DNA of 20,649 nucleotides, from positions 1 to 20,649 of the IMG/VR virus record IMGVR_UViG_3300036715_001696, one strand, 5' to 3'. This stretch comes from a virus. The notes under the pieces are model-generated. The model did not search any database. It was not told the DNA's origin and was given only the letters and a program-made list of their open reading frames with translations. This document shows positions 2,959 through 20,649 of this stretch, one piece after another. The position numbers and the translations under genes are program-made. Numbering within the stretch: position 1 is the first letter of the stretch; the number at the start of each line of letters is the position of its first letter.

Positions 2959-5790
2959 CTAACTACTTGCTGTTTCAATTGACGTAAATCCGCCCTCTTT
3001 TACCACCTTTAGAACATTAGATATTCTGCCTACTAATTCATCTCTATGAGAAATTAAATAAATATTTCTTTTATTTTCTCTTCCCATTTTCTTTAATATA
3101 CTTACAGCAGCTTCTACACCACTTGCATCTAAACCTTGGTCTAATAATTCATCTACAAATAGCAAATTAATCTTATCATTCATATTTTCGAACACATCAC
3201 GAAAAGCCCAAGATAAAGATAATACAAGCCGAGTTCGTTCTCCGCGACTTAGATTATCAAAATCAAATTCTTTGCCTAACATACTAATCTCAACTTCTAA
3301 GTCTGATTTGAATTTTACAGAATGAGGCAACCCTATGTCAGTTAAGTAATAACTTAGACGTTGGTTAAGGTATGTAAGATTTTGATCAATGATTTTCTTA
3401 CGAATAAAACTATCTTTATTAGTTAATAATTTTAAAAGATATTCTTGATGGTCTTTGAGTACAGTTAAATCGTTTATCTTTGTAAAATCAATTTCTTGTA
3501 ATCCTGTTTTTCTTAAAGCATCAATTTGTTCTAAATAAGGATTAGAAGTTTCTAACTCTGATGATAGACTATTTCCTAATGTATCTAATGTTGTCTTATG
3601 ACTGTATGCTTCGTCTATTGTTAAATAAAATGTATTAGGTAATTTAGGAATCATAGATGATACAGACGATGTTAGATGTTTTACATCGTCTCGCTTTAGT
3701 GATTTTTCAATTAGTTTTTCATTAGCTTCTTTAAGTTGTAATATATACTCGTCATGTACTTTAGTATGTGTTTCTTTATCCATATCTTGATTACATGTAG
3801 GGCATATACTTTCAACTGATGTTGCTAATATTTTATTTAATCTAGAAACAGATATAGACGAGGATGCTACTTCTCTCTCTAATGTTGATAATTCTTTTGA
3901 TAAAGATCTATATTCAGTATTCAGATCTTCTACATCTTTTTTAGATTTATGTAAAGAAATTTCAGCATCAATATTAACATTCATTAATTCTAGAATAGCT
4001 TGTTGTAGTTTTGTAATCTTTAATTCTTTAGATTTGTCCCATTCTTCGGATTTAACATTTAAAGCTACAATATTCTTTTCTATGCGTTTATTTGCTTCAG
4101 AAGCAGCAGATATTCTGAATTCCTCTTCTCTAATTATATCTTTAGTTATTCTTACTTCTTCCTTAAGTTTATCAGCTTTTTCCGAAAGTTTAGTAATTCC
4201 TAATAATTGTTCGATAATAATTCGTTGATCGTTTGTTCTTAATGATAAAAACGGCTCAACATATGTATTCAAAGCAAGAGTATGTTTAAACATATCATGA
4301 GAAATACCTATAAGTCTTTCAATTTCAGCTTGTGTATTACGACCCTCGCCTTGTGATTCATCATCACCAGAATCTTTCTCTATGCCATCTTTAATAAATT
4401 TAAAAATACCAGGCCTACGACCTCGCTCAATTTTATAATTGACACCATTTATTTCAAATGTCAATGTAACTAACATATTTTTCATGTTAGATTTGTTCAC
4501 TAAGTTATCTTTTTTAATATTTGTTAGTGCAGTTCCGTATAAGGCATAGCTAAGGGCATTAACAATGGCCGAATTATGAGTAACAATATAATTGTCAGTA
4601 ATATATAAATGTCGAGGATGGTCAATTAGGATACATTTTGAATCTTGTAATCCTAGTTTTTCTATTTTATCGATGCGAAGTCTTAAATTACTGTATTGAT
4701 GATTGGCAGAGATTTTATTTATTTTCCGAGATAACTTTGACAATTTTCTCGGATCAGAATATCGAATAGAAATATTATAATTTTGCAAACCTGTTTTACG
4801 TTCGCCTTTATATGTATAATACGGAATCTTAGAAGTAATCTTAGCTATACCCCCAATTGACCGTACTATTTCTTGAATATCTTCTGCCATATTTTTACTT
4901 GATGTTGATATAGAGATACTACTGCTACTACCTACATGCCCATCAGTGTCTACTAAACCAGCTAATAAATCTAATTTTTGATTTTTAGATGCTAATTTAT
5001 ATATACCCGGTATAAATTTTGTATGTGATAAAGTATCTCTTAAACCTAACTCTGTAATTTTTAATCGCAAAGGGTGGTTCTTTTGCTGACCACACAAAAT
5101 ACTATACTTATAATTTTCTATATTAGATTTTTTAATATATAAACCGTCCGGTAATCTCGAAGATATATTATCTGAAATTTCCTGATCGGCAGAAGTAAAC
5201 CCAATAGTATTCCCTCCATATCCAAACGACTCATCACCGAGTAATGTGCCTAATATGTATGGGTCTATAGGTAATTCAATATCAGACGAATTATCGTCAA
5301 TTAATGGAATATACATATATCTAATATTAGCATTATTCCCATTATTATATTTGCATCTATCTAATAATGGTATAATTTCTTTTGTTGTTAATACCTTTGT
5401 TGTTTGTTCACCCTCTTTTCGCCATTGGTGGGAAAATACTTCCCATAGATGATTTTCACAACACTCTGTAGTTCGTCCATCAGCGAATGTGATTCTATAT
5501 GTGTCGATTTTACCTTGAGGGAAAATATCTGTAACAATGGACGACGTACCGTCTGGACACGATACTGTATCACCTATCTTAATGTCTCCCATAGTAGTCC
5601 ATCCATCTGGCGTTTTAATTTTCGAATGTAGCGGTTGAGCTTTACCTACACCGTTCCTATTATCGTTACCGCCTAGATCTAAATTCTCACCTAATACAAG
5701 GACCAAATCATTACTATTAAAATTAATGGCTTGAGAGACATTACCTACAGACATGAAATTTTTAATTGTTAATCCGTTTAGTTTAATCAT
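2959..5790 (-). CDS. 46: gp46-like recombination endonuclease subunit (SbcC/Rad50 family), intein-interrupted
   Basis: A 943-residue precursor: 50 residues of N-extein, a 356-residue intein (51-406), then the rest of gp46, giving a 587-residue mature protein close to T4 gp46 (560). gp46 is the ATPase partner of gp47 in resecting DNA ends for recombination-dependent replication. Seen here: the Walker A end NGVGK^S, split by the intein; long coiled-coil-like charged stretches at about 530-720; the zinc-hook CPTC at 663-666; the ABC signature LSRGE at 847-851; Walker B LLFVDE at 876-881; the D-loop LDASG at 887-891; and the switch His915 (ISH). The segment preceding the P-loop is longer than in T4 and lacks the usual first Gly of GxxGxGKS, as I recall for marine T4-like gp46. 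The gap from gp47 is only 5 bases and no clear ribosome binding site is seen, so translational coupling is likely. Removing the intein is required for ATP binding. Confidence 0.93.
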   Translation of the reverse strand: MIKLNGLTIKNFMSVGNVSQAINFNSNDLVLVLGENLDLGGNDNRNGVGKAQPLHSKIKTPDGWTTMGDIKIGDTVSCPDGTSSIVTDIFPQGKIDTYRITFADGRTTECCENHLWEVFSHQWRKEGEQTTKVLTTKEIIPLLDRCKYNNGNNANIRYMYIPLIDDNSSDIELPIDPYILGTLLGDESFGYGGNTIGFTSADQEISDNISSRLPDGLYIKKSNIENYKYSILCGQQKNHPLRLKITELGLRDTLSHTKFIPGIYKLASKNQKLDLLAGLVDTDGHVGSSSSISISTSSKNMAEDIQEIVRSIGGIAKITSKIPYYTYKGERKTGLQNYNISIRYSDPRKLSKLSRKINKISANHQYSNLRLRIDKIEKLGLQDSKCILIDHPRHLYITDNYIVTHNSAIVNALSYALYGTALTNIKKDNLVNKSNMKNMLVTLTFEINGVNYKIERGRRPGIFKFIKDGIEKDSGDDESQGEGRNTQAEIERLIGISHDMFKHTLALNTYVEPFLSLRTNDQRIIIEQLLGITKLSEKADKLKEEVRITKDIIREEEFRISAASEANKRIEKNIVALNVKSEEWDKSKELKITKLQQAILELMNVNIDAEISLHKSKKDVEDLNTEYRSLSKELSTLEREVASSSISVSRLNKILATSVESICPTCNQDMDKETHTKVHDEYILQLKEANEKLIEKSLKRDDVKHLTSSVSSMIPKLPNTFYLTIDEAYSHKTTLDTLGNSLSSELETSNPYLEQIDALRKTGLQEIDFTKINDLTVLKDHQEYLLKLLTNKDSFIRKKIIDQNLTYLNQRLSYYLTDIGLPHSVKFKSDLEVEISMLGKEFDFDNLSRGERTRLVLSLSWAFRDVFENMNDKINLLFVDELLDQGLDASGVEAAVSILKKMGRENKRNIYLISHRDELVGRISNVLKVVKEGGFTSIETASS
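4573..5640 (-). mobile_element. full-length class 3-type intein with LAGLIDADG homing endonuclease, in the gp46 P-loop
   Basis: Precursor residues 51-406 interrupt the Walker A motif exactly between K50 and S407. The first residue is Ala (AQPLHSKIKTPDGW, block A), not Cys or Ser. The end is IVTHN followed by Ser+1. The Trp-Cys-Thr triad that defines class 3 inteins is present: B:12 Trp116 (two residues after B:10 His114), F:4 Cys386 (KCILID) and G:5 Thr404. In class 3 splicing F:4 Cys attacks the N-terminal junction directly. B:7 is Cys111 where Thr is usual. The middle holds two LAGLIDADG helices, PYILGTLLGDE (177-187, D186) and LLAGLVDTDGH (275-285, D283), both with their acidic residue, so the homing endonuclease may be active. 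The reading frame is intact. Insertion in a conserved nucleotide-binding loop is typical of inteins. Confidence 0.92.
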
Positions 5791-5795
5791 TTATT

Positions 5796-6815
5796 TTATA
5801 ATCCGTTATAAATTTCGATAAATTTATTAATATCATAGTTTGAATCTTTATCTAAAGCACCTAATGACTCAACTACAATCTGATCTACTGTTTTGAATAT
5901 TATATTTTTGGTAAGGTCAGTAGACACTTCGTCATCTGACGTCCTAATTAGTTTAAATTCTCTAACATTATATTGTTCTAAGAATGTTTCTCTAAGATAT
6001 GCTGCTTCTTCGTAAGTTATGTCTGCATCGACGACTACCTGTAAATATGTTTTTGGCTTTAAATAAAGATCAGGATCTGACAATAATGCAGAAAGTGTGA
6101 TATTTATAAATCTAGGTCCAGCAGTATAATTTAAATATTCTGGCTCCTTATCCCATTCTAAGTACATACAACCTCTTTCAAAATCCCATACATCTGCATA
6201 GTTATGCCCAAATGGATTACCAATATAACTAATTTTACCTTTAATTTGTCGTATATGGAAATGGCCTGAGAATACATAGTCTTGATTTTTAAAATGTGTC
6301 GAATTTAAGTGTCCGTGATCAGGCATTTCTACCTGAGCATTCATTTTAAACCCAGGTAATTCTAAATGCCCAAACAAATATTTTGATTTAATTTTAGTAA
6401 CTGCTTTCCATTCGTCATCAATTAACCAAGGAATTAACGCAACATCACCGGATATTAAATGATTGTCTACTAGAATAATATTAGGGAATAACGAAGCAAA
6501 CTTAATCGAAGTTATAGATCTATTATCTCGAAAATATAGATCATGATTTCCGACCATAAAATAAGTTTTTTCAAACGAATCATTTAATTTAGATAATAAT
6601 TTTATACCATATTCTAGTGTTAATGTATTAATTGTGTTCCTATGGTGATAGAAATCTCCCATGAATATACAAGTTTCTGCACCTCTATCCTTAGCTTCTT
6701 GTATAAACCAATCAACATAATCAATACAATCATCTAAATGATCTTTAGAGTTATGCCTAAGCCCGAGATGAATGTCAGAAAACACACACGTTTTCTTGAA
6801 TAGTTGTTTAGTCAT
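5796..6815 (-). CDS. 47: gp47-like recombination endonuclease subunit (SbcD/Mre11 family)
   Basis: A 339-residue calcineurin-like metallophosphoesterase, the same length as T4 gp47. It is the nuclease partner of gp46 and acts on DNA ends during recombination-dependent replication and host DNA degradation. All metal-binding motifs are visible: D14-x-H16 (FSDIHLG), GD at 53-54 with the following His residues, GNHD at 89-92, H150 (FGHLE) and GHFH at 184-187. The C-terminal 150 residues would form the cap and the gp46-binding region, which I cannot confirm from sequence. The start at 6815 overlaps the end of the gp55 gene by 8 bases (ATGACTAA) and is preceded by a strong GGGGAGA ribosome binding site inside gp55. 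gp46 follows after 5 bases. The order 55-47-46 is as in T4. Confidence 0.95.
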   Translation of the reverse strand: MTKQLFKKTCVFSDIHLGLRHNSKDHLDDCIDYVDWFIQEAKDRGAETCIFMGDFYHHRNTINTLTLEYGIKLLSKLNDSFEKTYFMVGNHDLYFRDNRSITSIKFASLFPNIILVDNHLISGDVALIPWLIDDEWKAVTKIKSKYLFGHLELPGFKMNAQVEMPDHGHLNSTHFKNQDYVFSGHFHIRQIKGKISYIGNPFGHNYADVWDFERGCMYLEWDKEPEYLNYTAGPRFINITLSALLSDPDLYLKPKTYLQVVVDADITYEEAAYLRETFLEQYNVREFKLIRTSDDEVSTDLTKNIIFKTVDQIVVESLGALDKDSNYDINKFIEIYNGL

Positions 6816-7749
6816 TGTCTCCCCTAGCTGCTTCTTGCGCTTCTTCTCGTAGATACCTAATATCAGCTTCTAATGCTAGTTGTCTAGAAAAACTAGGACT
6901 AGCACCACTATCAATTAATAGATCATCGCGGAGTTCTTGATTTCTTTTTTCTAAATTTAGTACTCTTGTAAAACTATTTTGCATTGATTGTGTATAGTAT
7001 GAGAACGGGTTATCACTTTTTGCTTCATCAAACTGTAGCCCCATTTGTGCTAATTGCAATAATGCCTGTCCTTTCATTTCGTCTATATATGTGTAACTTC
7101 TCCAATTGCTGCGTTGAGCATATCTATTTACTAGTAATATATACATATTTGCTAGCTTATTTGTAATACACCCTTTTTCGAGATTAAATTTACCGTTTTT
7201 TGAATGAGAACGCCCTACTTCAACTGCCTTACCGCCTTCGATGATAAAATGTTTAAAAGGAAAGAAATTTAGTTTTACGTGGTTATCTGCTTGATTCTTT
7301 GGATTCTTTTTGCGACCAGGCGCTAGTGGTATGTGATCAAATGTTAGTACACGATAAACCAAAATATCAGTTGAGATTGTTTCTGGTTTTACTTTATGAT
7401 CTATTAATCGCGGTTTTTCAGAACGGGTCGAGGTATTAGCAATAGCATTAGCAAACGCAATAGCACCCATTCTTGCTGCACGTGATATTCTGCCACTTTC
7501 CTGAACTTCTGGGAGGAATATTTCTTCTATACTTTCAACAATAACATCGTAATCTCGATATTTAATATCAGTATATTCTGAAAACGAACTCTTACTTAAA
7601 TGTATTTCTTTTAACATATCTTTATTATTAAGATAATTAATTTTCTTTACTGGATAATTTGTAACTATTTCCTCTTCAATTATTGTTTCGCTAAATGTTT
7701 CTTCGCCTATCCCACCTTGATCGTCTTGATCGTCTAAAAAGTCTGACAT
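6808..7749 (-). CDS. 55: gp55-like late transcription sigma factor, enlarged
   Basis: A 313-residue protein matching the divergent sigma factor that directs host RNA polymerase to phage late promoters. The N-terminal INYLNNKDMLKEI (38-49) resembles the T4 gp55 start. The sigma region-2-like core is at about 200-270 (NKLANMYILLVNRY, YIDEMKGQAL, FDEAKSDNPFSYYTQ, FTRVLNLEKRNQE), aligning with FDETKYKNPHAYITQ in T4. T4 gp55 has only 185 residues. The excess here is an acidic leader (1-30) and an insert at about 61-187 of unknown fold. The T4 C-terminal clamp-binding motif (SLDFLYE) is not evident, and the chain ends in a charged tail (REEAQEAARGDND). The gene is first in its operon, with AGGAG six bases before the ATG and a sigma70-type promoter upstream. 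Its presumed target boxes occur five times in this window. Confidence 0.87.
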   Translation of the reverse strand: MSDFLDDQDDQGGIGEETFSETIIEEEIVTNYPVKKINYLNNKDMLKEIHLSKSSFSEYTDIKYRDYDVIVESIEEIFLPEVQESGRISRAARMGAIAFANAIANTSTRSEKPRLIDHKVKPETISTDILVYRVLTFDHIPLAPGRKKNPKNQADNHVKLNFFPFKHFIIEGGKAVEVGRSHSKNGKFNLEKGCITNKLANMYILLVNRYAQRSNWRSYTYIDEMKGQALLQLAQMGLQFDEAKSDNPFSYYTQSMQNSFTRVLNLEKRNQELRDDLLIDSGASPSFSRQLALEADIRYLREEAQEAARGDND

Positions 7750-7775
7750 TAATTTCTCCTATAATGCTCGTCAAT

Positions 7776-7804
7776 ATTGTAATGAAAACCAAATAATAAG
7801 TCAA
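7776..7804 (-). promoter_or_regulatory. sigma70-type promoter for the gp55-gp47-gp46 operon
   Basis: On the minus strand TTGACT (7804-7799) and TACAAT (7781-7776) are separated by exactly 17 bases, a near-consensus sigma70 promoter. Transcription should begin about 20 bases before the gp55 ATG, leaving room for the AGGAG site. This would let the unmodified host polymerase express the late sigma factor and recombination genes early or in mid infection. It lies back to back with the late promoter at 7839. Confidence 0.65.
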
Positions 7805-7838
7805 GAATTTCTATATAAATTTAGCAAATTTTGACACT

Positions 7839-7847
7839 GATAAATAA
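7839..7847 (+). promoter_or_regulatory. T4-type late promoter for the baseplate cluster
   Basis: GATAAATAA is located 21 bases before the ATG at 7869. Predicted initiation is near 7852, just before the AGGGAG ribosome binding site at 7855-7860. It is the first promoter of the plus-strand structural cluster. A TTGACA at 7831-7836 is too close to act as its -35 element, and T4 late promoters do not need one. Confidence 0.7.
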
Positions 7848-7868
7848 GCAAGTTAGGGAGAATGTCAT

Positions 7869-8540
7869 ATGGCACAGCAAGATCAACGCGCAAGATTACA
7901 ACCAAAATCTTTAGAAAACGAAGATGTTTTAGGGCCACGCGACCCGTCAAATTTATTATTCCCTTTATGGTCAACACGTGGCGTCTTATTTCCGTACACA
8001 CCGTCTGTAGCAACCGGTAATGTAACAGAATACGACCCTACAAGCTTTATTCATTCTAATTACGGATATAACGCATATGTGCGATCTTATCCAAAACCAA
8101 TTAGTATTACCGCAGAATTTACAGCACAATCTAATGACGAAGCACTATATTTATTAGCAGTAATACATTTCTTTAGATCAGTTACAAAATCTTACTTTGG
8201 TATTAACCCATACAATAAAGCGGGCACGCCGCCCCCTACATTAGTATTTAATTATTTGGGTGATTATCAATTTAATAATGTTCCTGTAGTTGTTAAAAAT
8301 TTCGAATATACATATGAAGCAAACATAGATTATGTTCCGGTTAATACAGCCGATATATCGTTTTCTAATAATTTCGGAGTTAGCTTACCGGCCGGTAAGA
8401 ATGACGGTTATACCTGGGTACCTACACATATAACCGTCCAGATGGATTTAGACACTCAATATATACCTATTAAATTACGAAATGAATTTAATTTAGATGA
8501 ATTCAGACAAGGAAAATTAATTAATAAAGGATATTTATAA
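7869..8540 (+). CDS. 48: baseplate tail-tube cap protein, gp48-like
   Basis: A 223-residue structural protein that fits the gp48-type protein of T4-like marine phages, which caps the baseplate hub and starts tail-tube assembly. Characteristic stretches are LLFPLWSTRGVLFPYTPSV (29-47), a HSNYGYNAY segment, FTAQSNDEALYLLAVIHFFR (a conserved helix near 90-110), GTPPPTLVFNYLG, a PVVVKNFEYTY strand, and the ending RNEFNLDEFRQG. T4 gp48 is longer (364 residues), and I rely on remembered cyanophage-type relatives rather than on T4 itself. gp54 is related and cannot be fully excluded. A strong AGGGAG ribosome binding site sits eight bases before ATG 7869. The next gene starts one base after the stop codon, so the two are likely translated together. 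Confidence 0.65.
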   Translation: MAQQDQRARLQPKSLENEDVLGPRDPSNLLFPLWSTRGVLFPYTPSVATGNVTEYDPTSFIHSNYGYNAYVRSYPKPISITAEFTAQSNDEALYLLAVIHFFRSVTKSYFGINPYNKAGTPPPTLVFNYLGDYQFNNVPVVVKNFEYTYEANIDYVPVNTADISFSNNFGVSLPAGKNDGYTWVPTHITVQMDLDTQYIPIKLRNEFNLDEFRQGKLINKGYL

Positions 8541-14855: not shown

Positions 14856-14864
14856 GATAAATAA
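14856..14864 (+). promoter_or_regulatory. T4-type late promoter for gp25 and downstream genes
   Basis: GATAAATAA occurs just after the peptidase gene ends, in the only noticeable gap (35 bases) of the first baseplate block. Predicted initiation is near 14869. The leader contains AGAGAG before the ATG at 14883. Confidence 0.65.
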
Positions 14865-14882
14865 TAAAAAAGAGAGATAATT

Positions 14883-15302
14883 ATGTCATCAAACCAAAAA
14901 GGTTTAGTACAGAAGAATATTGTAACTAGACGACCTTATTTCGTCGGATTCAACACAGTGGGTCAGCCAAATCCCCCATATTCGTTAACTAATATAGATA
15001 TAGTTAAAAGGGATATCTTAAACCAATTTGCAACACCAATAGGTTCTAGGGTGATGCTTCCGGGGTTTGGTACTAATATTTATAGTTATTTATTTGACCC
15101 GTTTGATGAATACACAAAGAACGCAATTATAGAAGATGCAGTAAGAGTAGTGACTGATGATCCAAGAGTACACTTTGTATCAATAGATGCATATCAGAAA
15201 GATCAAACATTAACTATTGCATTAGTATTATTATTTTTACCAGAATCAGTTACAGATAATTTATTTGTATCGTTTTCACTAACGGATAAGGAATCCTTTT
15301 AA
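14883..15302 (+). CDS. 25: baseplate wedge subunit gp25
   Basis: A 139-residue protein, close to T4 gp25 (132), of the gp25/GPW family also found in contractile injection systems. In the baseplate it forms part of the inner wedge and touches the sheath, acting as its assembly start point. The family core is clear: DIVKRDILNQFATPIGSRVMLPGFGTNIYSYLFDPFDE (about 40-77, conserved Asn-Gln, Gly-x-Arg, Pro-x-Phe-Gly and Leu-Phe-Asp-Pro), then an amphipathic helix and the strand pair around DDPRVHFVSI. It was once called lysozyme-like, but the family is structural. It is led by its own late promoter and a GAGAG ribosome binding site. The stop codon shares a base with the start of the gp6 gene (TAATG), as expected for proteins that work together. 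Confidence 0.93.
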   Translation: MSSNQKGLVQKNIVTRRPYFVGFNTVGQPNPPYSLTNIDIVKRDILNQFATPIGSRVMLPGFGTNIYSYLFDPFDEYTKNAIIEDAVRVVTDDPRVHFVSIDAYQKDQTLTIALVLLFLPESVTDNLFVSFSLTDKESF

Positions 15303-18300
15303 TGTCAGCAAGTATTAGAACATCAAACCTCTTCACAGGAGAGGATTATAAAAAGATATTCCAGGCGTATGCTTTTATTGATTACACTGCATATGATTTT
15401 GATACATTAAAGCAAGCTCTTATTAATTACATACAGGCATATTATCCTGAAAGCTTTAATGACTATATCGAAAGTTCTGAATTTATTGCAATTATTGAAT
15501 TAATTGCCTATTTAGGTACGAGTTTAGCATTTAGAACAGATTTAAATAGTAGAGAGAATTTTATTGATACGGCTGAACGTAGAGAAAGTATTATACGCCT
15601 AGCACAAATGGTTAACTATGTACCTAGCAGAAATATTGCAGCAAGCGGTTTATTTAAGGTTGCATCAGTGAGAACTGATCAGCCTTTAACTGATGCAAAC
15701 GGCATAAACATTAATGATCGCACGATATTCTGGAATGACCCAAATAATCCTGATTGGTTTGATCAATTTATTCAGATATGCAATGCATCGTTTAGTCGAC
15801 TAAATCCATTCGGTCGCCCAACAAAAAGTGGGCCAATAGGAAGTATACCTACAGATTTATATCAATTAAATAATGTTCTACGACTAAACGTAACATATCC
15901 GCTTGCTATTACAATTAATGGCCAGCAATACCCGGTTGATATTTGTAATCCAGATTTTGTTCCAAATCAAACAATTTATGAAAGAGACCCTGATCCTGCA
16001 AATGCATTTAACTTTATTTACAGAAATGATAGCTTAGGTGTGTCTTCTGCCAATACAGGATTTTTTCTTTACTTTAAACAAGGTAACTTAATTAACACTG
16101 ACGTTAGTTTTGATTTTCCTATCCCTAATCGTTTATTTCCAATTGACGTACAAAACATTAACCAAGATGATGTATATGTACAAGAAACAGACCAATCAGG
16201 TAATGTAATAACAAAATGGGTTAAGGTACCGGCTTTAGCAGGTGAAAATATCATATACAACAGTATTCAGTTTGCTCAAAGAAACATATTCGATGTGTTA
16301 TCTGGTGCAAACGACACAGTAACAATCCGATTTGCAGACGGTAATTTCGGTAATGTACCTACAGGGTTATTTAGATTCTGGACACGAATTAGTGCAAATC
16401 AATCATTAGTTATTAGACCAACCGATGCTCAAGGATTACAGATTAGTATTCCGTACATCGGAGTTGATCAACAGACATATACATTAAGTATTTCTTTTAA
16501 TCTAGAACAAACAATAGGTAATGCAGCACCTGCTGAAACAAATGATCAGATCAAATTACGTGCACCGGAAGTTTTTTCAACTCAGTCTCGTATGGTTAAC
16601 GGTAGCGACTATAATGTTCTTCCATTAATTTACGGAAATCAAATTGCTAAATTACAGGCATTAGACAGAACATATAGCGGACAAAGTCGATATATTGATT
16701 TAAATGACCCTACAGGATTTCACCGAGACTTAATTATTTTTGGGCAAGATGGCGCCTTATTTAGAGATAATCAAAATGTACTACAACAGGTCATTAAAGA
16801 TTCGTCAAACCTAGGTACTATAGATCAAATACTTATAAACACTATACAAGAAATGTTAAGAGATGATAGGGTTAATAAATTTTTCTATGACGAATATATT
16901 ACACAATTTGAAAACAAGGTTAGGGTTAATAAACAAACAATACATGATCCTGGATTTTCTATTCTAGATTTAAGTAATACTTATCAGCAACCATTGTATT
17001 GGAAAACAAGTCCGCTTAAATTTAAGAATACAACCGGGTATTTTGCAAATTTAACCGTACCGTTAGCTCCGTATGCAGAATTAACTAATACATTAGATCC
17101 GAATAATACTGCGACAGGTACATATCAACCGTGGGGATTTATTAGGGCTGGGTCTGTGTTAGAATTTGCTAACCCGTTAGACCCTGTTGCTACATTAAAT
17201 TCTGTTGGTGTAAATAGCGTAATACAAGCTGGCGTGCCTCTTATTGTCAATCCGTTGAATCCATATGCAAATATTGGACCAGTTGAGTTAGGGGTAGAAG
17301 AGCAAACAAATTATCAGGCTAGAAAATTATATCCTGCTTTCCGAAACGTGTTAAATACAACTGAGATAGCAGAAATAGTATCAGCAATTGATGCTGGTAT
17401 ATCTTTTTGGTTATATTATGATTTATTAACTGATGAATGGCATGTTTCTACAACTGCCACACTTGGCCTTTCTAATCAAGCAGACCAACCATGGCAATAT
17501 GCTACACCAGATGTTGTATTAGGGCAAGAACAAATTTATTCGACAAACAACTGGCCATTAAACGCAGCCGGTGGATTATTATATGTTGCAATTGCAAGCA
17601 ATAGTCAACTAGGCACCACAACATATGATTTAACTGCTAGAGGCAGAACATATGTTTTCGAATCATACAGAGATGTAAGATTTTACTGGGAGCCTAATCA
17701 AGTAGTTGTTGATAGTTCTACAGGATTAGCACTTAAAGATTCTATCGAACTTATGCCGTTTGTTAATACAAATAGATTAGTAGATAATAATGCCCCTATT
17801 ATACCCCCGCCGCCTATTAAACCATTTATAAGTAAAGAAGTGAGTTTTAATATAACAGGTGTGTATATCCAAGATGATGGTTACCAAGATACATCTAAAG
17901 TTCAGGTATCGTTGATAGATAAGAACAGTGATGGTATACCAGATGACCCTACAGCATTTGATAATATTGTCAGCCCTACAGATAGAATAGTTTTTGAATA
18001 TTTTACAGATGCTCTCTCTGGTTATCAAGGTACACGACCATGGATATGTAAATGGAAAACATTATTAGAGAATATAACAACCCCCTTATATGTATATTTT
18101 CCGATGTTGGTTCCGGGTGTAGATACATCATTATATAGTTCTCCATATATAGCTGATCAATTATTATCAGGTGTAAATATTCTAGACCCCGGGTCTGTTA
18201 TCGGGCTTAACTATGTTTATATGGATGAAGTTGATTTATTGTTTATTAACAATTTGTCACAAATTGAATATACAGACCCTATAGGTCATGGCACCCCGTA

Positions 18301-19228
18301 TCCGATAACTATTGCAAATCAGTTAAGTGCATTTTTTAATAACGATACTTCGCTGTATCCGTGGTTAGTAGGAACACAATCATTATTAAATAAATCCGGT
18401 ATTTTAAGCCAGTATTTTTTAAATAAATCTTACCTGTTATCGTCTATAAGTCCTCCAGGGTACGGTGTATATTATGCCCTAGCGTTTGAAAATACTGCTA
18501 ATTCTGGTTATCCAACTGGTAGTATAATATCAGAGGTTAGTGATTTATCACATTATGATAAAAACGGAAAATGTTTTACACAAAACTCGACTATACAAGA
18601 CTCGCAACAAATACCGTTATATTTCAAATGGAGTCATTTTGCACCAATTGATCAACGTGTTGATCCAGCTGCAACTAATATTATCGATATGGTTGTAATA
18701 ACTAATAGCTACTATACAGATGTTGTAAATTGGAAAAACGGTAATGGATCTTTAATTGAATTTCCGGTTGCACCAACAACTGAAGATTTAAGAGTACAAT
18801 TTCAAAACTTAGATCAGTATAAAATGGTTAGTGATGCAATGGTATGGAATTCTGGTACATTTAAAATTTTATTCGGAAACCAATCTGCGCCAGAGTTACA
18901 AGCTACATTTAAAGTAGTAAAATCAGCATCAACAAATATCAGTGATAATGAAGTTAAGACAATGGTTATAACTGCAATTGATCAATTCTTTGATATCAGA
19001 AACTGGGATTTTGGTGAGAAATTCTTCTATACCGAACTTGCAGCATTTGTACACCAACAATTATCTAAAATCATTAGTTCTATTGTTATTGTACCAAATA
19101 ATGCAAATTCTTTATTTGGTAATTTGTTTGAAATTGTGGCAGGGCCTACAGAATTATTTGTTTCTACAGCAAAAGTTACTGATGTGCAAATTGTAGCGAA
19201 CCTCACTGATGCAAATCTTCGTATTTAA
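15302..19228 (+). CDS. 6: baseplate wedge subunit gp6 (baseplate J-like), greatly enlarged
   Basis: A 1308-residue wedge protein, twice the length of T4 gp6 (660). gp6 forms the ring that holds the inner baseplate together. The N-terminal region is typical: YPESFNDYIESSEFIAIIE (about 53-72), then LNSRENFIDTAERRESIIRL and VNYVPSR. A baseplate-J-like middle region appears near 410-450 (DQIKLRAPEVFSTQSRMVNG, DYNVLPL). The C-terminal gp6 segment is at about 1210-1308 (NEVKTMVITAIDQFFDIRNW, FGEKFFYTELAAFVHQQL). Between about 500 and 1190 lies added material I do not recognise, including DKNSDGIPDD at 873-882, which fits a DxNxDGxxD calcium-binding loop. There is no sign of a fused frame or an intein. 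Start ATG 15302 has AAGGA upstream and overlaps the gp25 stop. Enlarged gp6 proteins may be usual in some marine groups. Confidence 0.87.
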   Translation: MSASIRTSNLFTGEDYKKIFQAYAFIDYTAYDFDTLKQALINYIQAYYPESFNDYIESSEFIAIIELIAYLGTSLAFRTDLNSRENFIDTAERRESIIRLAQMVNYVPSRNIAASGLFKVASVRTDQPLTDANGININDRTIFWNDPNNPDWFDQFIQICNASFSRLNPFGRPTKSGPIGSIPTDLYQLNNVLRLNVTYPLAITINGQQYPVDICNPDFVPNQTIYERDPDPANAFNFIYRNDSLGVSSANTGFFLYFKQGNLINTDVSFDFPIPNRLFPIDVQNINQDDVYVQETDQSGNVITKWVKVPALAGENIIYNSIQFAQRNIFDVLSGANDTVTIRFADGNFGNVPTGLFRFWTRISANQSLVIRPTDAQGLQISIPYIGVDQQTYTLSISFNLEQTIGNAAPAETNDQIKLRAPEVFSTQSRMVNGSDYNVLPLIYGNQIAKLQALDRTYSGQSRYIDLNDPTGFHRDLIIFGQDGALFRDNQNVLQQVIKDSSNLGTIDQILINTIQEMLRDDRVNKFFYDEYITQFENKVRVNKQTIHDPGFSILDLSNTYQQPLYWKTSPLKFKNTTGYFANLTVPLAPYAELTNTLDPNNTATGTYQPWGFIRAGSVLEFANPLDPVATLNSVGVNSVIQAGVPLIVNPLNPYANIGPVELGVEEQTNYQARKLYPAFRNVLNTTEIAEIVSAIDAGISFWLYYDLLTDEWHVSTTATLGLSNQADQPWQYATPDVVLGQEQIYSTNNWPLNAAGGLLYVAIASNSQLGTTTYDLTARGRTYVFESYRDVRFYWEPNQVVVDSSTGLALKDSIELMPFVNTNRLVDNNAPIIPPPPIKPFISKEVSFNITGVYIQDDGYQDTSKVQVSLIDKNSDGIPDDPTAFDNIVSPTDRIVFEYFTDALSGYQGTRPWICKWKTLLENITTPLYVYFPMLVPGVDTSLYSSPYIADQLLSGVNILDPGSVIGLNYVYMDEVDLLFINNLSQIEYTDPIGHGTPYPITIANQLSAFFNNDTSLYPWLVGTQSLLNKSGILSQYFLNKSYLLSSISPPGYGVYYALAFENTANSGYPTGSIISEVSDLSHYDKNGKCFTQNSTIQDSQQIPLYFKWSHFAPIDQRVDPAATNIIDMVVITNSYYTDVVNWKNGNGSLIEFPVAPTTEDLRVQFQNLDQYKMVSDAMVWNSGTFKILFGNQSAPELQATFKVVKSASTNISDNEVKTMVITAIDQFFDIRNWDFGEKFFYTELAAFVHQQLSKIISSIVIVPNNANSLFGNLFEIVAGPTELFVSTAKVTDVQIVANLTDANLRI

Positions 19229-19240
19229 AAATCACCAAAG

Positions 19241-19304
19241 AATCCCATAGATAAATAATCAAAAGAGATAGAAACATACGGTTTCTATCTCTGTCTATGG
19301 GATT
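19241..19304 (+). promoter_or_regulatory. two-part inverted repeat enclosing a late promoter and covering the next gene's ribosome binding site
   Basis: The outer arms AATCCCATAGA (19241-19251) and TCTATGGGATT (19294-19304) are perfectly complementary (11 bp). Inside, AGAGATAGAAAC (19264-19275) pairs perfectly with GTTTCTATCTCT (19281-19292) around the loop ATACG (12 bp). The late promoter box occupies 19250-19258, so a late transcript should begin at about 19263, at the foot of the inner hairpin, and would lack the outer left arm. Read-through RNA from gp6 would contain both arms and pair the GGGA ribosome binding site. On the minus strand the inner stem is followed by TTTT, so a weak antisense terminator is also possible. 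Confidence 0.75.
19250..19258 (+). promoter_or_regulatory. T4-type late promoter inside the inverted repeat
   Basis: GATAAATAA, followed by TCAA as in the endolysin promoter. Predicted initiation at about 19263-19264 gives a leader that begins with the inner 12-bp hairpin and leaves TATGGGATTTAAA unpaired before the ATG. Confidence 0.65.
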
Positions 19305-19308
19305 TAAA

Positions 19309-20649
19309 ATGACTCAATTCATAAAAAAACTGCCGGCAGTATTTCAAACAACAACTGAGAAAAAGTTTTTTGACTCTACGTTTGATCAAGTTTTTTCCAA
19401 AAAAGATAGTAATTTATTATCGGGATATATAGGTCGCAGAACATCTGGCGATTATAATCCTGTTACAGATTTTTACCTACCAGAACCTACTAAGGATAGG
19501 ACCTGGTGGCAATTAGAAGCAACTGCATTTGCACAAGATGCTAGTAGCAATAAAACAAATATTTTCTTCTATGAAGACTTACTGGAAAGAATTAGATATT
19601 ATGGTGGTAATACACTAAATCAAGATAGATTATTTGAGTCTGAATATTATAGTTTCGGTCCTCCGATCGATTACGATATGTTTATCAATTACCAAAATTA
19701 TTACTGGGTAGAACAAGGACTTGCTGTTGTTAGTATTACAGGTGTAACTTCTTCAGATATTATTGGTAAATTAACTTTTAATACCAATGAAGTGCCTGGA
19801 GCAACACCTGCGAATTTACAAGTTACATCTGGAATGTCAATATCACTTTTAAGCGACCCTGCTTATAGCTCTCCTCATACTGTAGAAAATATTGGCGAAT
19901 GTATCGGTATCCGATTAGTACCACAATTTCCAGATTTTACTGAAGGTACTATCTTTGAATTCTTACCGTGGGATGGGAATACACAGTTATCAACTGGCAG
20001 GATTATCAATAATGCACGATGGGATGGGAATACGTGGGATACACAAACCCAACCACTTAGCGGAGATTATATAACTATCGAACGCGGATCATTGGATAGA
20101 AATGCATGGTCCAGAACAAATAAATGGTTCCATATAAGTGCAATTAGTACAACAATTGCAGCAACAGGTACATCGTTTCCCGCAAACTCAACAAGAGCAT
20201 TACGCCCTATTATCCAATTTGTTGCTGATTTAAATTTATGGCAATCAGGTACACAATTTAGATCAGATATTAACTATGGTTTTAGAAATGACGTTTATGG
20301 AAACCCTATTAGATTTTTAGATTACCAAGGTGAACAAGTTACAACAGTAAATTCTCAATTAGGCACTAATCTTGCTAATGGGGAATTATTATGCTTCTTT
20401 AATGACGACACTCTTATTGGAGATCCGGGATCAGGGACAAATTTATATAATCAATATATATTTTTTGTTTCAATTCTTTTAGATGGTACGGTTGACTTTA
20501 CACCATATACATCGTGGGCAACACCTATCTTAGAAGGAGATATTGTATTTGTGACAGAAGATGGGCTTGGGAGTTCCGCACAGCGAGGACAATCATGGTA
20601 TTATGATTTGGGTACGTGGTTAGAGGTTGCAAATGACAAAGCGCAGGTT
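19309..20649 (+). CDS. large virion structural protein, 5' part only (gp7 position)
   Basis: An open frame of 447 codons runs from ATG 19309 to the end of the window without a stop, so the gene continues beyond it. The protein starts MTQFIKKLPAVFQTTTEKKFF. It contains segments I recall from large, poorly named structural proteins of marine T4-like phages: RTWWQLEATAF (around 65-75), FFYEDLLERIRYYGG (about 86-100), then DRLFESEYYSFGPPIDYDMF and INYQNYYWVEQG at about 105-144. Later parts are rich in Asn, Thr, Gly and Trp, as in tail proteins. T4 gene 7, a wedge protein of 1032 residues, directly follows gene 6, so gp7 is the best positional guess, but I see no decisive gp7 motif. The ribosome binding site GGGA (19299-19302) is weak and lies in an inverted repeat. 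It is driven by its own late promoter. Confidence 0.75.
   Translation, partial: MTQFIKKLPAVFQTTTEKKFFDSTFDQVFSKKDSNLLSGYIGRRTSGDYNPVTDFYLPEPTKDRTWWQLEATAFAQDASSNKTNIFFYEDLLERIRYYGGNTLNQDRLFESEYYSFGPPIDYDMFINYQNYYWVEQGLAVVSITGVTSSDIIGKLTFNTNEVPGATPANLQVTSGMSISLLSDPAYSSPHTVENIGECIGIRLVPQFPDFTEGTIFEFLPWDGNTQLSTGRIINNARWDGNTWDTQTQPLSGDYITIERGSLDRNAWSRTNKWFHISAISTTIAATGTSFPANSTRALRPIIQFVADLNLWQSGTQFRSDINYGFRNDVYGNPIRFLDYQGEQVTTVNSQLGTNLANGELLCFFNDDTLIGDPGSGTNLYNQYIFFVSILLDGTVDFTPYTSWATPILEGDIVFVTEDGLGSSAQRGQSWYYDLGTWLEVANDKAQV

Follow-up and report, generated by a model that had tools for sequence, protein, structure and literature searches.

A nested hairpin at the gp6/gp7 junction

The window (the whole 20,649-nucleotide stretch of viral DNA analyzed here) ends within a gene at the gp7 position. 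This gene directly follows a gp6-like gene (Table 1) and is downstream of late baseplate genes, whereas gp46, gp47, and gp55 are encoded on the other strand. A search of phage-record DNA for near matches to the window found none. The gap between gp6 and the gp7-position gene contains the two perfect stems, of 11 and 12 bp, that the initial annotation had described around a late promoter, and both were confirmed in the sequence. The outer stem pairs AATCCCATAGA with TCTATGGGATT, its left arm beginning 12 bases 3′ of the gp6 stop codon (19226–19228), and it encloses an inner stem that pairs AGAGATAGAAAC (19264–19275) with GTTTCTATCTCT (19281–19292) across a loop of 5 bases. The late promoter box, GATAAATA, sits between the two left arms, with its first two bases forming the end of the outer left arm, and GGGA (19299–19302), a weak Shine–Dalgarno sequence, falls within the outer right arm. 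The leader strand had a folding energy of −33.7 kcal/mol (z = −9.6), which none of 200 dinucleotide shuffles equaled. It was also the sole instance in the window of a perfect stem of at least 9 bp enclosing another; 100 shuffled windows yielded three nested pairs in total (0.03 each), at a looser threshold.

Table 1. Positions of the genes and leader features in the window.
Feature	Position	Strand	Basis
gp6-like baseplate wedge gene, putative source of read-through RNA	15302..19228	+	PHROG baseplate wedge subunit, E 0
Outer left arm AATCCCATAGA, predicted in read-through RNA only	19241..19251	+	Perfect complement of 19294–19304; fold
Late promoter GATAAATA (gp55-type)	19250..19257	+	Motif enrichment; position kept in relatives
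Predicted late RNA start	19263	+	T4 spacing (box at −13 to −6)
Inner 12-bp hairpin, predicted to be 5′-terminal in late RNA	19264..19292	+	Pairing; inner arms covary in relatives
Outer right arm TCTATGGGATT with GGGA	19294..19304	+	Pairing, fold, opening energy
gp7-position virion structural gene (ATG 19309–19311), continuing past the window end	19309..20649	+	PHROG virion structural protein, E 1e-54; relatives' alignment
gp25-like gene, late promoter and start	14856..14885	+	Pfam GPW_gp25

The window encodes a gp55-like late sigma factor (6808–7749; PHROG E 1e-71). Because the ATAAATA core is frequent by chance in this AT-rich window, it is the placement of the box rather than its presence that carries information. 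In three related contigs of 363–385 kb, GATAAATA was the top-enriched 8-mer 5′ of genes, preceding 34–50 genes where about 4–5 were expected (8–11-fold enrichment), and by this measure it is a genuine late-promoter motif in this phage group. Late boxes of T4 lie approximately one helical turn 5′ of the start and require no other element (PMC2988020). Applying the T4 box-to-start spacing places the predicted late start of the gp7 RNA at 19263, past the end of the outer left arm at 19251, such that the late RNA would lose that arm.

Computed accessibility of the start region and comparison with T4

The initial annotation had also proposed that GGGA is hidden in read-through RNA and freed in late RNA. 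Because the duplex energy of the arms alone proved to be a blunt score, with a similar share of genes lacking a late promoter reaching −10 kcal/mol or lower, we instead calculated how much free energy it takes to unpair the start region (−14 to +3) in the read-through RNA and in RNA from the predicted late start, and checked this score on T4. For the gp7-position gene the computed cost of opening fell from 16.8 kcal/mol in the read-through RNA to 2.5 kcal/mol in the late RNA, in agreement with the proposal, and the same calculation for T4 gene e (lysozyme) gave 17.4 and 1.9 kcal/mol. When 25 T4 late sites were ranked by this score, e, I-TevI, I-TevII, 49, 26, segB, and 51 came out on top, all of which except 51 are named as structure-controlled in reviews (PMC3014915, PMC2988022); soc, which the reviews also name, ranked lower. 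The first ATG of the ORF, at 19297, was rejected as the gp7 start, since relatives align at 19309 (MTQ.IKKLPAVFQT) and opening the earlier codon would cost 17.4 kcal/mol even in the late RNA.

Judging from the stems, the promoter motif, and the computed accessibility, together with the conservation and the association with a possible upstream source of RNA described below, it is likely that the leader acts as a transcript-dependent lock on translation. RNA entering from gp6 would contain the outer left arm, form both stacked stems, and hide the Shine–Dalgarno region, leaving the gp7-position gene untranslated from the read-through RNA. RNA begun at the late promoter (about 19263) would lack the outer left arm, retain a 5′-terminal hairpin, and expose the site. 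We infer that read-through does occur and that the long RNA is silent. The most likely purpose of such a lock is to tie gp7 to its own late promoter rather than to read-through within the late operon, and the element probably shields gp7 from RNA that reads through from gp6 by acting on translation.

Occlusion of this kind is already known, and the leader fits the T4 gene e type in mechanism while differing from it in context. In T4 gene e, I-TevI, soc, and gene 49, the stem that hides the ribosome-binding site contains the late promoter in its 5′ strand, which is missing from the late RNA (PMC3014915). The window leader likewise has its promoter in the 5′ strand of the stem, has computed energies nearly equal to those of gene e, and shares three features of the type: the start is paired in the predicted read-through RNA, the position of the box would remove the 5′ arm, and the pairing is conserved. 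It differs from the T4 leaders, to which we saw no sequence relationship, in having a second, nested stem that the late RNA would retain at its 5′ end. Moreover, the silent RNA of T4 is early or middle, whereas the genes upstream in the window are late. The leaders of T4 I-TevII and segB and of Aeh1 mobE have the same promoter-in-hairpin layout (PMC2988022), and homing endonucleases appear locked in large relatives of the window too, but the lock described here would guard essential-looking baseplate genes (at the gp25 and gp7 positions). RNA structure is likewise found at the gp25 start in the split ribosome site of T4 genes 26-25 (Malys and Nivinskas, cited in PMC3014915), but there it aids translation by shortening the spacing, whereas the stem here would hide the site.

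The initial annotation had invoked the logic of T4 gene e as a whole, including its timing. The mechanistic part of that analogy held up in the computed energies; the temporal part carries over less obviously, because the upstream baseplate genes are late and lie opposite to gp46, gp47, and gp55, such that the read-through RNA is probably late as well and early read-through is not evident. A temporal switch exactly like that of gene e, in which early or middle RNA reading into the gene is silent and late RNA is active, would account for the shared architecture and energies and for the homing endonuclease genes (the T4 and Aeh1 cases) that also appear locked in large relatives, as well as for the HNH gene behind the element in relative L016. 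The location of gp7 behind late genes speaks against such a switch, as do the sigma-70-like sites near the element, which a scan found at chance level only, although early promoters of another host type may lie upstream. We consider a switch of this kind somewhat unlikely and prefer insulation within the late operon.

Conservation at the gp7 and gp25 positions

The base pairing that the initial annotation had expected to persist in related phages was kept there, through different arms. Relatives were identified as gp6 matches in viral contigs and confirmed by tblastn. Across 24 distinct gp7 leaders with a promoter (that of the window and 23 others), opening of the start region cost a mean of 9.0 kcal/mol in the read-through RNA versus 2.4 kcal/mol in the late RNA, and most of the 23 others kept the locked read-through form using different arm sequences. 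Their commonest layout was TAATTTCC..GATAAATA..GGAAATTA or a close variant, where the window instead has AATCCCATAGA/TCTATGGGATT; paired with each other, the window's arms scored −17.4, compared with averages of just −4.3 and −7.1 when they were paired with the arms of relatives. When pairing of each arm with its own partner was compared with pairing to the partners of other relatives, about 2 of 20,000 permutations did equally well for the outer arms and 0 of 20,000 for the inner arms, with ancestry ignored in both cases. Locks were weak in L005, L014, and L020 (read-through opening of 2.2–4.3 kcal/mol).

More than a quarter of the relatives had neither promoter nor stem, the conserved pairing and the promoter being missing together in about ten, and in the nearest cultured group (PA5oct) gp6 and gp7 are a mere 6 bases apart. 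At nine promoter-less junctions the start region was open (median 3.0 versus 7.9, p = 2e-4). On the gp6 tree the state of the element changed at least five times on well-supported branches, and L005 and L008, a well-supported sister pair, had opposite states. The openness of the promoter-less junctions, taken with these changes, suggests that lock and promoter have been gained and lost together.

The relatives also bear on the possibility that the hairpin mainly marks RNA ends, as a 3′ stabilizer or weak terminator of the gp6 RNA and a 5′ stabilizer of the late gp7 RNA, with hiding of the site being secondary. The inner hairpin of the window would start one base into the late RNA, as this explanation would have it, and would persist there as a 5′ hairpin, as it would in L005 and L055; but in most relatives the late start falls past the beginning of the inner left arm, such that the inner stem would be broken in the late RNA. 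Three distant relatives, GAP32, 121Q, and Vibrio phage 2.275.O, do have terminator-type hairpins with T-rich tracts between gp6 and gp7 (L218 5950–6060, L222 5945–6056, and L223 6345–6470), and in the first two a NATAAATA late promoter box comes after the hairpin. Those terminators would likewise part gp7 expression from gp6 read-through, but by stopping the RNA itself, whereas the window element would stop its translation. The window's mRNA strand has no T run after the stem, and a scan of that strand for intrinsic terminators (a GC-rich stem followed by a T run) found none, with the minus strand alone scoring. What the outer arm covers, moreover, is consistently the start region, and an inner hairpin is missing altogether from the gp25 element described below. 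A primary role in marking RNA ends thus seems improbable.

Also decidedly improbable is translational coupling, in which ribosomes finishing gp6 would open the lock and read-through RNA would yield gp7 in parallel with gp6. Relative L049 is suggestive in this regard, as its left arm includes the gp6 stop codon and would be opened by terminating ribosomes. In the window, however, the 12 bases between stop codon and arm bring the arm to about where we would expect the edge of the ribosome to be, most relatives have a similar gap, and coupling leaves unexplained why the lock is accompanied by a promoter of its own.

In L016 gp6 is followed by an inserted HNH endonuclease gene (7458–8189), which comes immediately after the late promoter and hairpin. 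Separately, a TATAATT before GATAAATA is common to the gp25 and gp7 sites, but we set aside the idea of a mobile cassette, the shared bases being at least partly explained by pairing with those preceding the ATG; a literature search on promoter stem-loop cassettes returned no paper directly on this layout.

The lock proposed for gp7 has a counterpart at the gp25-like gene, which lies two genes 5′ of gp7 (start 14883) and carries its own GATAAATA. In relatives the box at this site is typically flanked by ATAATTCTCTT and AAGAGAATTAT, the latter directly before the ATG, forming a simple hairpin whose loop holds the promoter, with no inner hairpin. Across 52 leaders, including that of the window, mean opening energies were 11.1 kcal/mol in read-through RNA versus 0.9 kcal/mol in late RNA; the window's own gp25 site was weakly locked (4.0 versus 2.4 kcal/mol). 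The arms were paired in 84% of cells, versus 47–69% after sliding, and covariation was modest, with 3–4 of 500 shuffles scoring as high. The gp25 fold was stronger in the mRNA sense than in the antisense in 41 of 47 cases (p = 2e-8), which points to RNA rather than DNA; no such strand bias was found for the gp7 fold (p = 0.34).

Operon-internal late promoters in three large relatives

We then scored late promoters throughout three large related genomes (G001–G003, ~370 kb each), with gene starts taken from a simple caller. A site was called locked when its opening energy was raised by at least 6 kcal/mol, and the expectation was obtained by swapping upstream flanks between sites; the scan included promoters less than 25 bases from the start, and palindromic divergent promoters were kept from distorting the result. 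Among codirectional (operon-internal) late promoters, 28 of 88 were locked versus 5.6 expected (maximum of 15 in 5000 swaps), a comparison in which homologous sites are shared and ancestry is ignored, and each of the three genomes was significant alone (P = 4e-4 or less). Divergent late promoters in the three genomes showed no enrichment (2 of 26 versus 2.0 expected). Genes without a late promoter were locked in 14 of 220 cases versus 10.3 expected, with a slight excess at a threshold of 10 kcal/mol (4 versus 1.1). A lock that silences read-through would be expected only where there is a codirectional upstream gene, and the enrichment fits this expectation. The locked genes included gp25, virion proteins, three homing endonucleases, and the tail sheath gene (L123 15650–18436, in G003), whose late promoter had a computed lock of 10.2 versus 4.2 kcal/mol.

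That the arms are a DNA-level element, serving as inverted repeats for the late promoter or as a terminator of antisense RNA with no role in the mRNA, is highly improbable: although strand makes no difference to the strength of the gp7 stems and the minus-strand inner hairpin (19264–19292) is followed by TTTGATTATT in terminator-like fashion, most late promoters lack such arms, divergent late promoters are not enriched for them, the gp25 stems are biased to the mRNA sense, and T4 late promoters need the box alone (PMC2988020). As a separate matter, facing late promoters between diverging genes (GATAAATA...TATTTATC) form a palindrome of their own in G001–G003, for example at G001 + 193343 and G002 + 317185, as do the facing late promoters of T4 genes 26/51 and 4/53.

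Returning to the lock on translation, it is perhaps an even bet that arms locking the ribosome-binding site at operon-internal late promoters serve as a general means of insulation in this giant-phage group, with about a quarter of such promoters silencing read-through translation (an excess of ~22 of 88) and the arms filling the role that terminators would have between gp6 and gp7 in GAP32-like phages. If so, long late RNAs would go untranslated at genes equipped with their own promoter. The switch of T4 gene e has hitherto been seen as confined to a handful of special genes barred from early expression, but the conservation at two baseplate genes, the recurrent joint gain and loss of lock and promoter, and the enrichment only where read-through is possible suggest a more general rule, by which one long late RNA may run across many genes and yet the output of a given gene is set by its own promoter. 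The contrast in opening energy offers an easy way to look for such genes from the sequence of any phage related to T4.

Two further observations concern the minus strand of the window. The ORF at 2116–2883 (256 aa) occupies the position where T4 gene order would suggest a sliding-clamp gene, and a nested double hairpin at 2890–2948 covers its ribosome site without any GATAAATA, with an opening energy of 16.2 kcal/mol; no relatives of this gene were found in viral contigs, and a further search gave one weak match that lacks a hairpin. In addition, the gp46-like gene (2959–5790) contains an apparent intein with a LAGLIDADG domain, located in the ATP-binding P-loop.
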